A DNA stretch of 64,000 nucleotides from Ilumatobacter fluminis (lineage in GTDB: Bacteria; Actinomycetota; Acidimicrobiia; Acidimicrobiales; Ilumatobacteraceae), in contig NZ_SOAU01000001.1 in the NCBI RefSeq assembly GCF_004364865.1, positions 1,612,001 to 1,676,000 on the forward strand, read 5' to 3'. The notes under the pieces were generated by a model. The model did no database searches. It saw nothing but the letters and a program-made list of their open reading frames with translations, and was not told the DNA's origin. How positions within the stretch are numbered: position 1 is the stretch's first letter; each line of letters begins with the position of its first letter. Position numbers and translations under genes: made by a program. Shown here piece after piece: positions 1,905-53,891 of this stretch.

Positions 1905-4082
1905 TCAGGGGAGTGGCGACAACATGCCGGCTGCTCGGGCAGCGTCGACCGTCTCGGCGCGCGACGTTGTGCCGAGCTTGCGGTAGATCGACGCCGTGTG
2001 CGACTTGACCGTGTTGCGCGACACGAACAGCTCCGAGGCGATGTCGCCGAGGCTGAGGTTCGTCGGCAAGTACTGGAGCACGTTGAGCTCGGCGGTCGTG
2101 AGGGTCCAGGCCGGGTCGAGGCCGAGCTGTTCGGCAGCGGTGACCCGGGTTCGGAGGTCGTCGACGTGTGGCGTCAGCCCGTGCGGTGTGTCCTCGGGTC
2201 GCAACAGTGTCTCGGCGCGGTCGAGGTGGCGGCGCGCCGCCTTGGCGTCGCCGATGTGCAGCGAGGCGGTGGCCAGGATGACGAGGGTGTACGCCTGATA
2301 CCACGCCGACACCGGTCCGAAGCCGTCGAGCAGATGGAGGCACCGGTCGATCATGGCCGTGGCGCCGTCGCGCCGGCCGGAGCGGGCCTCGTCGAGCGCC
2401 ACCATCGAGACGAGGTTGGCCGACGGCGGCGTGATGTCGGGTACCGACCGTTCGAGGCGCCGGTAGGCGGCGACGGCGTTCGTCGATGCCGTCGGTGAGC
2501 CCTCGAGGAATTCGATCGTCGCCTTCATGCCGGCATTGTTGGCCTGGAGTCGGTGGACACCGGCGACCTGTGCTTCGAACGCACCGTCGTCGAGGATCGC
2601 CAGCGCTTCGGCGGTGTCGCCGTGCAGGTATCGGAAGGCGCCGAGCGCCCAACAACCAAACGATCGCCACGCCCCGCCCGGAAGCTCGCGAACGGCGGCT
2701 TCGAGTGGCGGCCTGAGCTCGGTGGTCGGCTGGAGTTCGAACGCTGCCGACAGCACGTCGGTCTGCAGGCGGAGATCGTCGGGAAGGCGGGTCCGTCCGT
2801 TGGTGTGAGCGAGGGCACGGGTCCAGCGCAACGCCGACGGGAAGTCGCCCAACTGCGTTTCGATGACGGCCGCCGTCGCGCACAGTTCTGGCCTGGCCCG
2901 AACGGCGTCGTCGCCGAGGGTCTCGAACCAACGCTGCACGGTGCGGTGTCGGCCGTCGGCGACGAACGAGCCGCCGTGCTCGGCAATGATGCCGACGCAG
3001 CGGTCGACGTCGCCCATCGTGTGGGCGAACTCGAAGACCAGGTCGACGTCGCCCTCCCGCTCCCACCAGTCGGCGGCGAGGCGATGGAGCTCGGCCCACC
3101 GCTCCGGCTGTTCACTCCGGAGCTCCCGTGAGAGCCAGTCCGCGACGAGGTGGTGGAGCCGGAACCACTCGCCGCGTTCGTCGAGTGCGTCGACCACGAA
3201 CTGGCGGCGTCGGAGGCGACGGAGGTCGGATCGGCAGCCGGTTCGGCCGAGGACGTCCCCACACATGTCGGGGTGGAAGCGACCGAGGCAGGCGAGTTCC
3301 GCCAGCAAAGCCCGATCGTCGGGATCGAGCTGTTCGAGCCAGACCGACACGACGGGCTCGTCCGAGCCGGCAGGGGAGTCGAAGGTGGCGCCGCCTCGAT
3401 TGGCGATCGCGAGTGCGAGTCCGGCAGGCCAGCCCTCGTACCTCGAGATCGTGGTGGCGAACGACCCGACGTCGGTGGCCGGGAGGCGGGCGTTCATCAG
3501 CGCCGTTGTCTCGGCGTCGCTGAACGCAAGCCGGTCCGACGCGAGCTCGATGGTGCCGGGGGCGAGACGCAGCGCAGTCGCCAGACCCTCCTCGAGGTCG
3601 CGACCGGCGAGCAGCAGCGTCGACTCGCCGCCGATCGCACGCGCGACGCGCTGGACGACGGCAGCGGCGGCGGGACTCCGGAGGTGGTCGACATCGTCGA
3701 TGACCAGCACGAACGGTTCGTCGATCGCATCGAGCATGACGTCGAACGACTCGTGGAGCAGACCATCGTCGAGCGGCGACTCGCCGAGACCGTCGAGACC
3801 GTCGAGGGCGGCGCCGATCGAGCGCATCAAGGCGACCGGGTCGTCGTCGACCGGCTCGAGGTCGAGCCATCGGACGGACCGTCGATCGGAACGGGTCCAG
3901 CGGGCAGCGAGCGTGCTCTTCCCGTAGCCGGTCGGTGCAGCGAGGACGAGCACCCGGCCACGAGCCTCCTCGTAGACGGTGTCGAGGCGGTGGCGTTCGA
4001 TCTCGCCGGCGAGCGGCTGCGGGGGCGCGAACCGTCCGCGGTCCCGAACTGCGCTCCCTGCCGTCGACGTTCCCACTCTCAT
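1905..4082 (-). CDS. MalT/LuxR-family ATP-dependent transcriptional regulator
   Basis: 725 aa from ATG 4082. A longer upstream frame is low-complexity Arg-rich and was not accepted as coding. Walker A is 'APTGYGKST' (49-57) and Walker B 'VLVIDDVDH' (about 125-133), followed by a STAND-type winged-helix/TPR-like middle region. The last 65 residues form a LuxR HTH ('LSLGDIASELFVSRNTVKSHTASIYRKL' split across helices, about 676-705). This is the domain order of MalT-type signal-transducing ATPases, which bind DNA when ligand and ATP are bound. The ligand is unknown. The gene is divergent from the SHOCT-domain gene at 4298, with 215 bp between starts. Confidence 0.85.
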   Translation of the reverse strand: MRVGTSTAGSAVRDRGRFAPPQPLAGEIERHRLDTVYEEARGRVLVLAAPTGYGKSTLAARWTRSDRRSVRWLDLEPVDDDPVALMRSIGAALDGLDGLGESPLDDGLLHESFDVMLDAIDEPFVLVIDDVDHLRSPAAAAVVQRVARAIGGESTLLLAGRDLEEGLATALRLAPGTIELASDRLAFSDAETTALMNARLPATDVGSFATTISRYEGWPAGLALAIANRGGATFDSPAGSDEPVVSVWLEQLDPDDRALLAELACLGRFHPDMCGDVLGRTGCRSDLRRLRRRQFVVDALDERGEWFRLHHLVADWLSRELRSEQPERWAELHRLAADWWEREGDVDLVFEFAHTMGDVDRCVGIIAEHGGSFVADGRHRTVQRWFETLGDDAVRARPELCATAAVIETQLGDFPSALRWTRALAHTNGRTRLPDDLRLQTDVLSAAFELQPTTELRPPLEAAVRELPGGAWRSFGCWALGAFRYLHGDTAEALAILDDGAFEAQVAGVHRLQANNAGMKATIEFLEGSPTASTNAVAAYRRLERSVPDITPPSANLVSMVALDEARSGRRDGATAMIDRCLHLLDGFGPVSAWYQAYTLVILATASLHIGDAKAARRHLDRAETLLRPEDTPHGLTPHVDDLRTRVTAAEQLGLDPAWTLTTAELNVLQYLPTNLSLGDIASELFVSRNTVKSHTASIYRKLGTTSRAETVDAARAAGMLSPLP

Positions 4083-49955: not shown

Positions 49956-51875
49956 TCAGGAGGCTTCGGGCGACTCGTCGGCGGTCAGCTCGCGCAGGAA
50001 CGCCTCGACGTCGGCGCGTTCGCGGGTCCGCTTCATCGGAGGGAGCGCCTTGACGATGTCCCAGCGGTAGCGGGCGGTGCCGAGGCGGGGGTCGAGCACG
50101 GCGACGACGCCGCGGTCGTCCATCGTGCGGATGAGTCGGCCGCAGGCCTGTGCCAGCAGTGTCGAGGCGCGCGGCACGTCGATCTCGGAGAACGCAGACG
50201 CCCCGAGCTGATCGCGACGTGCCGACAGCAGCGGATCGTCGGGACGGGGGAACGGCAGCTTGTCGATCACGACCAGCGACAGCGTCCGGCCCGGCACGTC
50301 GACACCCTGGAACATGCCGGTCGTCGCGAACAGGCAGGTTTCCTCCGAGTCGGCGAACGCCTTCACCAGCGCCGGCTTGGGGAGATCGCGCTGGGTGAGG
50401 ATCGGCACCGAGATCTCGTCGCGCACGGCCTCGACGGCGTGATCCATCGCCGCCCAGCTCGTGAACAGGGCGAGGGTGCGGCCGCCTGCTGCCTCGATCA
50501 GCGCGATCAACTCGTCGGCGACCTGATCGCGGAACTTCGGCGACCGGGGCTGCGGCATGTGCATCGCGCAGTACAGCATCGCCTGCTGCTCGTAGTCGAA
50601 CGGGCTGCCGACGTCGGCGCTGTGCGTGCGTTCGGCGGGGAGGCCGACGCGCGCCGCCAACGACGACGGCACCGTCGCGCTGGTGAGGATGGCGGTGTGG
50701 TCGCCCCAGACGTTCGCCCCGAGTACCGGGCCGACGTCGAGCGGAGCGACCTCGAGCCGGGGCGACTGGGGTGCGCCCGACACGAACGGCACCTTGTCGT
50801 CGCCGGCGGTGAGCGCCGCCTCGACGGCCTCCATCGAGCGGGCGATCATCTTCTGAGCGCGGAGCTTGCGTTGTTTCGCGTCCTCGACGTCGGTCTGGAT
50901 CGACTCGACCGCCTCACCGACCCGGGTCAGTCGGAGCCGGGCGTCCTCGAGCGCGTCGGTGATGTCGGAAGGCAGCGGTGTGGAGAGCCGCTCGTTGAGG
51001 TGCCGCGAGAACACGTCGCGCAGGAGCGGGGCGAGGTCGGCGATCGTCCCGACGAGCTGAGGGTCGTCGAGGAAGCGGCGCACCGTGGCCGACACGGTGA
51101 CGAAGCGGCCGGGGGAGATGTCGACCCCGACGGTGTCGCTCATCGTGTCCTCCAACACGTGGGCCTCGTCGAACACGACGACGTCGTGCTCCGGCAGGAT
51201 CGCGCCGCCGCTGCCCACGTGCAGCCCGTACAGGTAGGTGTTGACGACGATGACGTCGGAGGTCTGCGCACGGCGGCGTGCCGACTCGGCGAAGCACTCC
51301 TGGCCCATCGGGCAGCGGTCGCCGCCCGGACACTCGTCGCTCCCGACGCTGACGGCGCGCCACGCCTGGTCGCTCGGGCTCCACTCCATCTCGGCCTGGT
51401 CGCCGGTCTCGCTCTCGCCGGCCCACTCGGCGATCTTCTTGATCTCGAGCTTGTTGGTGGCCGACAGTTCGTCGAGTTCGAGCTGTCCGGTCGAGGGCTG
51501 GCTCATCTCGCGCAGGCGCTGCAGGCAGACGTAGTTGCTGCGGCCCTTGAGCACGGCCCAGTCGAGGTCGTGTCCGAGTTCGGACAGTTCCTCGGCGAGG
51601 AACGGGAGGTCTTTCGTCGCCAACTGGTCCTGCAGCGCCTTGGTCGCGGTGGCGACGACCGTCCGTTTCCCCGAGGTGATGGCCGGCACCAGGTAGGCGA
51701 GGGTCTTGCCGGTGCCGGTTCCGGCCTGCACCACGAGGTGCCGCCCACGTTCGATGGACGCGGCGACGAGTTCGGTCATCTCTCGCTGACCCGGGCGGTC
51801 TTCCGCTGCGGGCAGGGCGGCCGTGACGGCCGCGAGGGCCTCGAGCGCGGCCGAGGCCGCCGTGGGGTCGGTCAT
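49956..51875 (-). CDS. dinG: DinG-family ATP-dependent DNA helicase
   Basis: 639 aa from ATG 51875, overlapping the uppS stop (ATGA). XPD-like superfamily 2 helicase: Walker A 'AGTGTGKTLAYL' (about 51-62), DEAH in 'VVVFDEAHVLEDT', 'TSATVPSS', and C-terminal 'QACGRLIRTMDDRGVVAVLDPR'. Cys residues at 'YVCLQRL' and 'ECPGGDRCPMGQEC' form the Fe-S cluster. 5'-3' helicase in DNA repair or R-loop resolution. The size fits actinobacterial DinG. Confidence 0.9.
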   Translation of the reverse strand: MTDPTAASAALEALAAVTAALPAAEDRPGQREMTELVAASIERGRHLVVQAGTGTGKTLAYLVPAITSGKRTVVATATKALQDQLATKDLPFLAEELSELGHDLDWAVLKGRSNYVCLQRLREMSQPSTGQLELDELSATNKLEIKKIAEWAGESETGDQAEMEWSPSDQAWRAVSVGSDECPGGDRCPMGQECFAESARRRAQTSDVIVVNTYLYGLHVGSGGAILPEHDVVVFDEAHVLEDTMSDTVGVDISPGRFVTVSATVRRFLDDPQLVGTIADLAPLLRDVFSRHLNERLSTPLPSDITDALEDARLRLTRVGEAVESIQTDVEDAKQRKLRAQKMIARSMEAVEAALTAGDDKVPFVSGAPQSPRLEVAPLDVGPVLGANVWGDHTAILTSATVPSSLAARVGLPAERTHSADVGSPFDYEQQAMLYCAMHMPQPRSPKFRDQVADELIALIEAAGGRTLALFTSWAAMDHAVEAVRDEISVPILTQRDLPKPALVKAFADSEETCLFATTGMFQGVDVPGRTLSLVVIDKLPFPRPDDPLLSARRDQLGASAFSEIDVPRASTLLAQACGRLIRTMDDRGVVAVLDPRLGTARYRWDIVKALPPMKRTRERADVEAFLRELTADESPEAS

Positions 51876-52546
51876 CGGGCGAGTGCGATCGCCCGGTCGA
51901 GGTCGGCGCCGTCGAACTCCGGCCACGACGCGTCGGTGAAGTGGATCTTGGCGCCCGCGCCCTGCCAGAGCAGGAAGTTCGACACCCGCAACTCACCGGA
52001 GGTGCGCACCATCACGTCGACCGGCGGCAGCTCGGGCAGGTACAGGTGCTTCTCGATGGTCTCCGGGGTGACCGGCTGGCCCTGGGCCCGCACCTGGCGC
52101 ACTGCGCTCATCAGCTCGGCCCGACCGCCGTAGTCGAACGCGACGGTGAGGGTCATGCCCGTGTTCGAGGCCGTGTCGTTGATCGCCTTGCGGATCGCTC
52201 GCTGGACGTACTTCGGGGTGCGTGCCGACGGCGAATCGAACGGTCGCCCGATCCACTGGATCCGGACGTTCAACTCGTTCAGCTCCTTCACGCGACCGAA
52301 GAGCTTCTCGTGGAGACCGAGGATGTGGCGGACCTCGGCGCGGGGACGAACCCAGTTCTCGGTGGAGAAGCCGAACACGGTCAACCAGCCGATGTCGCGC
52401 GTGACGGCCACCCGGACGATGCGGGCGAGATTCTCCTCACCCTCGGTGTGGCCCTCGGTCCGTGGCAGGTCGCGCGCCGCGGCCCATCGACCGTTGCCGT
52501 CCATGATGCAGGCGACGTGCAGGCGCTGGGATTCCTCCACGGCCAC
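51872..52546 (-). CDS. uppS: Polyprenyl diphosphate synthase UppS, catalytic subunit lacking C-terminal tail
   Basis: 224 aa from GTG 52546, shorter than usual (about 245-260). Cis-prenyltransferase making the polyprenyl diphosphate carrier for envelope polymers. Present: catalytic Asp16 in 'IMDGNGRWAAAR' (14-25), 'LTVFGFSTENWVRP' (55-68), 'FDYGGRAEL' (137-145) and 'VRTSGELRVSNFLLWQ' (180-195). Missing: the residue equal to E. coli Glu213, here Lys200 in 'WQGAGAKIHFTDA' where 'AYAEL' is expected, and the C-terminal 'RERRFGG' (RxG) tail, since the frame ends at Arg224 and overlaps dinG. The divergent gene at 52583 carries both missing parts. Start choice is GTG 52546; GTG 52540 is a near alternative. 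Confidence 0.9.
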   Translation of the reverse strand: MAVEESQRLHVACIMDGNGRWAAARDLPRTEGHTEGEENLARIVRVAVTRDIGWLTVFGFSTENWVRPRAEVRHILGLHEKLFGRVKELNELNVRIQWIGRPFDSPSARTPKYVQRAIRKAINDTASNTGMTLTVAFDYGGRAELMSAVRQVRAQGQPVTPETIEKHLYLPELPPVDVMVRTSGELRVSNFLLWQGAGAKIHFTDASWPEFDGADLDRAIALAR

Positions 52547-52582
52547 CGAGGTTACCGACGTCCGACGTGTGAGAATGGGGAC

Positions 52583-53149
52583 ATGTCCCCCTCGGCTGCG
52601 ACCCCGGCTGCGAGCTCGACCCCGTCGACCTCGTCGCTGCGTCACGTCCTGGTCGTCGGCGGCACCCTCGCCGAGTGGTCCGACCTGACCGACGAGCAGT
52701 GGCGGCGACGCCTCGAGACGTTCGGTGAGCTGTGCGAACGGCTCGGCGTCACGTGGCTCACCGTCCGGGCGTACGAACACGGCGACCGCTCGGCGGCGAC
52801 GCCGCCCGAACACCGACGCCACCGCCTGCGTGACGTCGAGGTGATCGCCGATCCGCAACCCGACGGCCGGCAGCGGTTCGCCGACGCCATGGCACGCATC
52901 GACGACGACGACGAGGTCAACGAGGCCACCGTCGCCTCGGCGCTCTACGAACCGGCCGACAGCGAACCCGACCTGGTCGTGGTGCTCGGCCCGCCCACAC
53001 AACTGCCGCCGTCGCTCGTCTGGGAACTCGCCTACGCCGAACTCGTCTTCATCGACGTCGCCTGGGCCGACCTGACCGCCGATCACGTGGCCGCCGCCAT
53101 CGACGACTTCGCCAACCGCCGCCGTCGTTTCGGCGGGCTCGACGAGTGA
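52583..53149 (+). CDS. UppS-like non-catalytic partner (NgBR/Nus1-like cis-prenyltransferase subunit)
   Basis: 188 aa from ATG 52583, only 36 bp from the uppS start on the other strand. N-terminal 'RHVLVVGGTLAEWSDL' replaces the catalytic 'IMDGNGRWA', and 'ERLGVTWLTVRAYEHGDRS' replaces 'TxxAFSxENW'. The RTSGE motif is absent ('PDLVVVLGPPTQLPPS'). The C-terminus is fully UppS-like: 'WELAYAELVFIDVAWADL' with the Glu that UppS lacks, then 'AIDDFANRRRRFGGLDE' with the RxG motif. This complements the uppS product and matches the split known for NgBR (as I recall it, 'DPDLVLKFGPV' and 'TEIVSLP', ending RLG). It could also be a regulator or a decaying paralogue. Confidence 0.8.
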   Translation: MSPSAATPAASSTPSTSSLRHVLVVGGTLAEWSDLTDEQWRRRLETFGELCERLGVTWLTVRAYEHGDRSAATPPEHRRHRLRDVEVIADPQPDGRQRFADAMARIDDDDEVNEATVASALYEPADSEPDLVVVLGPPTQLPPSLVWELAYAELVFIDVAWADLTADHVAAAIDDFANRRRRFGGLDE

Positions 53150-53162
53150 CGGCGTCGTCCCG

Positions 53163-53891
53163 ATGAGCGAGCTGTACCGCGACACCGGCGTGGTGCTGCG
53201 CACCTACAAGCTGCGCGAATCCGACCGGATCGTCGTGTTCATGACCGCCGAGAACGGCAAGGTCCGTGCCGTCGCGAAGGGCGTCCGCAAGACGAAGTCG
53301 AAGTTCGGTGCCCGACTCGAACCGATGAGTCACGTGCGGCTCCTGCTCTACCGCGGACGCGAGCTCGACATCGTGAGCCAGGCCGAGTCGGTGGAGCCGC
53401 TCGCCCCGCTGCTCTCGTCGCTCGACCGAGCGTCACAGGCCATGGCGGCGATCGAGGCCGTCGACCAGATGTCGCTCGAGCGCGAGCCGAACCCGCAGCT
53501 GTACCGCATGACCGTCGGCGTGCTCCGCACCATCGCAGACCGTCCGGCACCGCTCAACGTGCCGGCGTTCTACTGGAAGCTGCTCCGCAACGAGGGGCTC
53601 GAACCCCAGCTCGACGCGTGCGTTCGGTGCGGTGAGACCGAGCCGGGCACCGAGCTCGTCGCGTTCGACCTGAACGAGGGCGGCGTCCAGTGTCGCCAGT
53701 GCCGCACCGGCTCGGCGATCTCGCCGGGCGCGCTGGCCATCATGCGCGACATCTTCGGTGGGCGACTCAACCAGGCGCTGGCGCTGGAGGAGTCGCCCTT
53801 CACCCACGAAGTCGGCAGCCTGGCGACGAAGGCACTCGAACACCACATCGAGCGCCACCTCAAGACAATCGCCATGTTCGAGCGCCACTGA
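53163..53891 (+). CDS. recO: DNA repair protein RecO
   Basis: 242 aa. OB-fold N-terminus 'YRDTGVVLRTYKLRESDRIVVFMTAENGKVRAVAKGVRKTKSKFG' region, helical middle, and a zinc-finger C-terminus 'CVRCGE...CRQC' (about 153-182). Mediator loading RecA at gapped DNA. It lies 13 nt after the UppS-like partner gene in the same direction, followed by the riboswitch. Confidence 0.95.
   Translation: MSELYRDTGVVLRTYKLRESDRIVVFMTAENGKVRAVAKGVRKTKSKFGARLEPMSHVRLLLYRGRELDIVSQAESVEPLAPLLSSLDRASQAMAAIEAVDQMSLEREPNPQLYRMTVGVLRTIADRPAPLNVPAFYWKLLRNEGLEPQLDACVRCGETEPGTELVAFDLNEGGVQCRQCRTGSAISPGALAIMRDIFGGRLNQALALEESPFTHEVGSLATKALEHHIERHLKTIAMFERH

Follow-up and report, generated by a model that had tools for sequence, protein, structure and literature searches.

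A probable heteromeric cis-prenyltransferase encoded by divergent genes in the bacterial family Ilumatobacteraceae

According to one review of the cis-prenyltransferases (cPTs), bacteria and plants have homodimers, and fungi, animals and plants have heteromers (PMC7839719). The heteromers are described as making the precursor of dolichol, and disease-causing mutations are known from the human pair (PMC7573591); relatives are reported to take part in rubber synthesis (PMC5110245). In the human complex, NgBR reaches across the dimer interface with its RxG-bearing C-terminus and enters the DHDDS site. There L291 and G292 hold the S2 phosphate through their backbone atoms, and the tail braces the farnesyl diphosphate-binding loop (PMC7573591). 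A prokaryotic heteromer, MM_0618/MM_1083 of Methanosarcina mazei, is reported to yield C45-50 products (PMC8131916). Here we analyse two neighbouring genes in a 64,000-nucleotide stretch of the Ilumatobacter fluminis genome (contig NZ_SOAU01000001.1, positions 1,612,001 to 1,676,000; hereafter the window), one encoding an UppS homologue without the usual C-terminal tail and the other a divergent partner. From comparison of their sequences, it is very probable that the two products constitute one heteromeric cPT that makes undecaprenyl (or similar medium-chain) diphosphate for peptidoglycan. The physical complex, the mutual dependence of its subunits, the product and the gene duplication itself are proposed here. 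The two genes are:

51872..52546, minus strand: putative catalytic subunit, a tail-less UppS homologue of 224 amino acids (GTG at 52546, TGA at 51874-51872)
52583..53149, plus strand: putative non-catalytic partner of 188 amino acids with a shortened cPT fold, lacking DGNGR and RTSGE and carrying Glu153 and an RRFGG tail

They are arranged start to start with 36 bp between them. The reading frames given in the original prediction were correct; strand had been left out, and uppS lies on the minus strand.

Active-site residues divided between two proteins

The catalytic protein had been described as an UppS with the DGNGR and RTSGE motifs, a lysine at position 200 and no RRFGG tail, and the translated frame and alignment agree: DGNGR starts at residue 16, RTSGE at residue 181, and Lys200 aligns with Glu213 of E. 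coli UppS. Pfam PF01255 matched it over profile positions 1-209 of 219 (E 4.6e-64), and it passed NCBIfam TIGR00055 with 200 bits against a cut-off of 110. Its AlphaFold2 model had a mean predicted local distance difference test score (pLDDT) of 87 and a predicted template modelling score (pTM) of 0.86. Structural comparison placed the model close to 1x09 (Z 27.5, root-mean-square deviation (rmsd) 2.7, 218 residues aligned).

The partner, as had been noted, lacks both DGNGR and RTSGE and ends in RRFGG; its C-terminus reads ANRRRRFGGLDE, and its Glu153 corresponds to E. coli Glu213. PF01255 matched it at profile positions 129-219 with an E value far beyond chance (1.9e-13), and the UppS matches in NCBIfam covered only its C-terminal part and all fell below threshold. 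The AlphaFold2 model of the partner (pLDDT 88, pTM 0.83) aligned with 5hc8 (Z 12.4, rmsd 3.5, 164 residues), E. coli UppS 3sgt_B (Z 12.0, rmsd 3.6, 161 residues) and human DHDDS 7pb1_A (Z 11.4, rmsd 3.8, 161 residues); Foldseek alone gave a first row with E 4.6e-7 and a TM score of 0.55. A cPT fold is predicted on this basis for one partner. No NUS1 chain was among the 50 listed rows of the structural comparison, which is uninformative on the fold. The region of the long helices that follow FSxENW in UppS is deleted in the partner, with two short strands close by. Its last eight residues are poorly defined in the monomer (mean pLDDT 59), as would be expected if they become ordered only within a complex. 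By eye, residues 1-20 are rich in Ser, Thr, Pro and Ala, without a long hydrophobic stretch.

To follow the active site residue by residue, in E. coli numbering, we aligned 36 canonical UppS of the class (mostly best-scoring matches), 27 catalytic proteins and 28 partners. D26, N28, R30, R39, H43, N74, W75, R194 and S202 were intact in 36/36 canonical sequences and in all catalytic rows not gapped at the position (26 or 27 of 27), and in none of the 28 partners, where R39 and mostly W75 fall in alignment gaps. S71, E73, R77 and R200 were likewise intact in the canonical and catalytic rows. The tail residues R239, R241, R242 and G244 occurred in all canonical sequences and in all 28 partners, and in 2, 0, 1 and 0 of the 27 catalytic rows, respectively. 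At the Glu213 position, Glu was found in 36/36 canonical sequences, 28/28 partners and two catalytic rows. In the E. coli enzyme Glu213 acts as a metal ligand; a literature search for a paper on its binding metal across the dimer found none.

We also scanned named genomes with a peptide pattern that includes this Glu and can be matched by canonical UppS too, keeping the best 80 of 350 stretches as named loci. Their titles name Ilumatobacter, Ilumatobacteraceae, Acidimicrobiaceae, Actinomycetota and others, and a few (Acidobacteria, Bifidobacterium) look like mislabelled metagenome-assembled genomes. The partner tail was RRFGG in 79/80 of these loci and RRFGA in the remaining one (L116), and RRFGG was found in 0/72 complete named catalytic proteins. 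Across these sets, the catalytic proteins keep an intact pocket and, one protein apart, have no RxG tail, and the partners (28/28) have the RxG tail without the catalytic Asp and Arg, as in heteromeric enzymes. Pocket and tail in one chain, as in homodimeric UppS, was not the arrangement found, each gene holding one part. The original prediction is supported on this point, each protein mostly keeping the active-site residues that the other has lost. Lysine at the Glu213 position holds for the window protein and fails as a general rule, since relatives vary: the 73 readable named catalytic loci have K in 30, A in 24, R in 8, E in 6, Q in 3 and T in 2. The catalytic subunits with Glu there are those of G014, G047, L110, L114, L121, L123, L126 and L132, L123 and G014 being one and the same contig. 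Mean column identity was 65% for the catalytic protein and 32% for the less conserved partner.

The division resembles that in the human enzyme. Human NUS1 has a Glu within WHIRLTEI and ends in RLGK, and DHDDS has Cys at the corresponding position (WQTSHSCLVF); the match with Glu213 was judged by eye on the distance between W and E, with alignments as a further basis for DHDDS. DHDDS itself is not known to have an RxG tail. As had been predicted, the human and bacterial pairs split Glu and tail in the same way: the catalytic chain has the pocket and no Glu, and the second chain has the Glu and the RxG tail. They differ in that the present pair is bacterial, is encoded by divergent genes, has a bacterial-type RRFGG tail and is closer in sequence to bacterial UppS; on inspection by eye, it also appears to lack an NgBR-like membrane anchor and a DHDDS-like C-terminal helix-turn-helix. 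With yeast Rer2/Srt1-Nus1 it shares a partner of cPT fold that appears catalytically dead. Nus1 is described as having an antiparallel beta pair in place of NgBR helix 3 (PMC7573591), and the partner here is predicted to have adjacent strands (78-82 and 85-90) next to its deletion. An Asn is reported to replace the tail Arg in Nus1 (PMC7839719), whereas the partner here retains the Arg. MM_0618/MM_1083, likened here by description and not by sequence, is also a prokaryotic two-subunit cPT, but an archaeal one. Homodimeric UppS (E. coli, M. tuberculosis Rv2361c) has the same fold and pocket residues, and presumably the same product and pathway role, but carries pocket and tail on one chain.

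These comparisons suggest the following mechanism. The catalytic pocket, with FSTENW, RTSGE, the DGNGR motif that carries the Mg-binding Asp, and the hydrophobic tunnel, would come from the minus-strand protein. In the plus-strand protein the pocket has decayed and the tunnel helices are deleted; it would pair with the first protein in the place of the second chain of a usual cPT dimer. The RRFGG tail at the partner's C-terminus, and probably Glu153 as well, would then reach across and complete a single active site.

Gene content and distribution of the pair

The genome is a single contig of 4,775,416 bp rated 99.97% complete. A second complete uppS would have counted against the original prediction, and a PF01255 search of the whole genome at E<=10 returned uppS and the partner and no other match. 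MraY uses undecaprenyl phosphate, and mraY was present in 6/6 family genomes tested. With mraY present and only two cPT genes found, the pair presumably supplies this carrier.

We extended the search to a class sample of 395 genomes, 29 of them from the same family. Of these 29, 27 have the tail-less gene and the partner and no complete UppS; the genes are divergent neighbours in 26, and in G372 they lie on two contig ends. G027 has the partner only, at a contig edge. Among non-family genomes, 40 were looked at closely and the others taken as match counts only; those 40 each contain one or two complete UppS, with a few fragments besides (several of these lie where a contig ends), and none has the pair. 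When a phylum sample of 396 genomes was searched with a partner profile at E<=1e-20, ten family genomes matched at E<=1.6e-59; the best match outside the family was a canonical UppS of the same order (G071, 5e-31). No partner-like gene was found outside the family in this sample at that threshold, below which a strongly diverged partner could score. The co-occurrence across Acidimicrobiia envisaged by the original prediction is conserved within one family, and does not spread over the class in the samples examined.

In the named loci, the tail-less UppS adjoins the partner in 76/80, four of the 76 being cut by a contig end; L095, one of the four exceptions, lies at a contig edge. Orientation was divergent in 102/102 loci with both genes (window, family and named sets, which overlap). 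Only the pair was found in the genome of Ilumatobacter nonamiensis YM16-303 (L093). A distance of about 10 kb separates the two genes in L105 (G753 contig 96), and the genomes of L128 and L131 carry them on separate contigs, so adjacency is not needed.

The remaining family genome, G238, has neither pair gene at the locus, where dinG and recO are about 70 bp apart (L160, about 3306-3375), and has one complete UppS on another contig (L051, 3056-3826, minus strand). Taken with the 27 genomes that have the pair, this makes the pair and a complete UppS mutually exclusive in the family sample. In a RecO tree G238 groups with the family (support 98), its placement inside the family being unsettled, and the pair may either have been lost from G238 or never have been present there. 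A natural swap of this kind would suggest that one complete UppS can stand for both genes. The G238 UppS has RTSSE in place of RTSGE and a tail reading RRRRKG, without FG, and the gene beside it looks, by eye, like one for a polyprenyl synthetase.

Co-variation between the subunits was assessed from pairwise distances over 81 non-redundant loci. The catalytic-partner correlation was 0.74, and 0.45 as a partial correlation after removing recO and dinG; partial values were 0.18 for partner-recO and 0.02 for partner-dinG. The catalytic-partner correlation was reached by 0/500 label permutations, which ignore relatedness. The co-divergence lends weak support to the proposed two-subunit enzyme.

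Proposed dependence of the catalytic protein on its partner

It is possible to read the same locus as a tail-less UppS that is active alone, as a homodimer, with the partner a regulator, chaperone or chain-length modulator that does not complete the site. M. mazei MM_0014 is described as lacking RXG, crystallising as a homodimer and being active (PMC8131916), and loss of the tail alone is on that account no proof of dependence on a partner. The intact pocket residues of the catalytic protein fit this alternative, as does the minority of catalytic proteins whose Glu213 position still holds Glu.

Several further observations weigh against the proposed two-subunit enzyme. The loss at the Glu213 position is not strict, Glu persisting in 2/27 catalytic rows and 6/73 named loci. 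Partners still keep R200 in 13/28, S71 in 5/28, E73 in 4/28 and R77 in 3/28, with the alignment uncertain near gaps. One of the 72 complete named catalytic proteins, that of L118, ends in GRRTG, an RxG by letters after the WP motif. Both genes are present but non-adjacent in 3/80 named loci (L105, L128, L131). Moreover, the co-divergence is confounded, as the catalytic-recO partial correlation is also raised (0.39).

With MM_0014 active, the case for dependence rests on the reciprocal pattern and on exclusivity. A regulator would have no obvious reason to retain just the residues that the other protein has lost (Glu at the Glu213 position and RRFGG, in 28/28), and G238 combines a complete UppS with the lack of both pair genes at the locus. 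The near-absence of an RxG after the WP motif in catalytic proteins, set beside the RRFGG or, once, RRFGA tail of all 80 named partners, points the same way. We regard activity of the tail-less UppS alone as improbable. The heteromeric enzyme that had been predicted is supported by exclusivity, conservation in the family, the residue split and the predicted fold of the partner.

Going further, we think it likely that the DHDDS-NgBR design was invented a second time, independently, in Ilumatobacteraceae, that the pair is obligate and the sole source of undecaprenyl diphosphate, that it is the first such case in bacteria, and that G238 exchanged it for one UppS. No bacterial heteromeric cPT was found in the open-access literature searched by title and abstract start, subscription papers and preprints being outside that scope; an earlier description of a bacterial case elsewhere is possible. 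The pair probably represents, in bacteria, where the literature search showed none, a design known from eukaryotes and archaea, and one independent of theirs. If so, it would allow comparative tests of the reasons for a change from a symmetric to an asymmetric enzyme, of the residues that have to be divided and of a possible link between asymmetry and longer chains. The pair offers small, probably soluble subunits, with G238 as a natural control within the family. Annotation would probably take the partner for a hypothetical protein or an UppS fragment, a misreading by which a likely essential gene would be overlooked; an antibiotic target would, if the proposal is true, exist in unexpected form across the whole family.

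Origin of the pair and its genomic neighbourhood

The pair lies between two conserved neighbours:

49956..51875, minus strand: gene for a helicase of the dinG family, downstream of uppS (named by eye and from the original prediction)
52547..52582, no strand: 36-bp divergent region separating the two start codons (from the sequence)
53163..53891, plus strand: recO gene, downstream of the partner (named by eye only)

The stop codon of uppS and the start codon of dinG (ATG at 51875, minus strand) share the letters ATGA, which bears out the overlap noted in the original prediction. The 36-bp gap at 52547..52582 presumably holds or overlaps the promoters of both genes.

Gene order was compared with that at 32 loci with a complete UppS (none from the family, 27 from the same order). 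There, recO was on the uppS strand in 30/32 and dinG was upstream, on the opposite strand, in 16/32 (the flanks being only about 1.5 kb). Within the family set, recO was on the partner's strand in 108/109 loci, the exception being L051 of G238, where there is no partner; dinG was on the strand of the catalytic gene in 94/102 loci, 0.9-1.3 kb away in five. Outgroups thus often have dinG divergent from uppS-recO, and the family has dinG-uppS divergent from partner-recO. The partner occupies the outgroup place of uppS and the catalytic gene stands between it and dinG, as would be expected from a head-to-head duplication followed by reciprocal decay, which is the simplest origin for the pair. On this scheme uppS was probably duplicated head to head between dinG and recO in the family ancestor; the copy by recO, in the old position, would have become the tail donor, and the copy by dinG would have lost its tail.

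In a phylogenetic tree, the catalytic proteins and the partners each formed one clade (support 100 in the Shimodaira-Hasegawa-like approximate likelihood ratio test), and the catalytic clade was placed among Acidimicrobiia UppS. Constraining the two as one clade gave a log-likelihood 22.5 above that of the free search and was not rejected (approximately unbiased test, P 0.78). These placements are tentative, resting on long branches and quick searches.

The identical division of parts raises the alternative that the pair descends from NgBR/Nus1-DHDDS and was transferred from a eukaryote or archaeon, and the partner profile did find human NUS1 (E 8.5e-7). By the same profile, however, E. coli UppS scored 87 bits against 32 bits for human NUS1; 6jcn NUS1, which we take to be the yeast protein, scored 14.8 bits. 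The partner is nearer to bacterial UppS than to NgBR/Nus1 by these scores, and its best non-family matches in the phylum sample were UppS of the same order, G071 first. The gene order puts the partner at the outgroup uppS site, and the catalytic clade lies among Acidimicrobiia UppS, with the joint clade likelier and not rejected (no direct test, the tree being without eukaryotes and archaea). Such a transfer seems very unlikely. The partner may be called NgBR/Nus1-like, as it was originally, in function and architecture; as a statement of descent the term is not supported, the profile favouring bacterial UppS over human NUS1 and the gene order suggesting a local duplication.

That the truncation is a frameshift or misassembly, or that the genes are a decaying pseudogene pair with a complete UppS missed elsewhere, is scarcely credible: we found no point in its favour and rejected it, as 27 family genomes and 76 named loci share the pair, its catalytic residues being invariant, and the genome is rated complete and has no other PF01255 match at E<=10.

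Elsewhere in the class sample, 15/395 genomes gave no PF01255 match. Four of them are rated 90-100% complete, namely G382 (95%, 30 contigs), G020 (100%, 260 contigs), G052 (98%) and G100 (90%); an assembly gap or an unusual UppS may lie behind these cases. Beside a high-scoring UppS1, other Acidimicrobiia often have a second complete cPT that scores lower, UppS2 (for example G013, G205 and G260; L068, L070 and L072). This second full-length enzyme was considered as a possible source of the partner; its three rows formed a clade of their own in the tree. Two cPTs are also present in the four genomes examined from family f34, whose genomes are of about 1 Mb.

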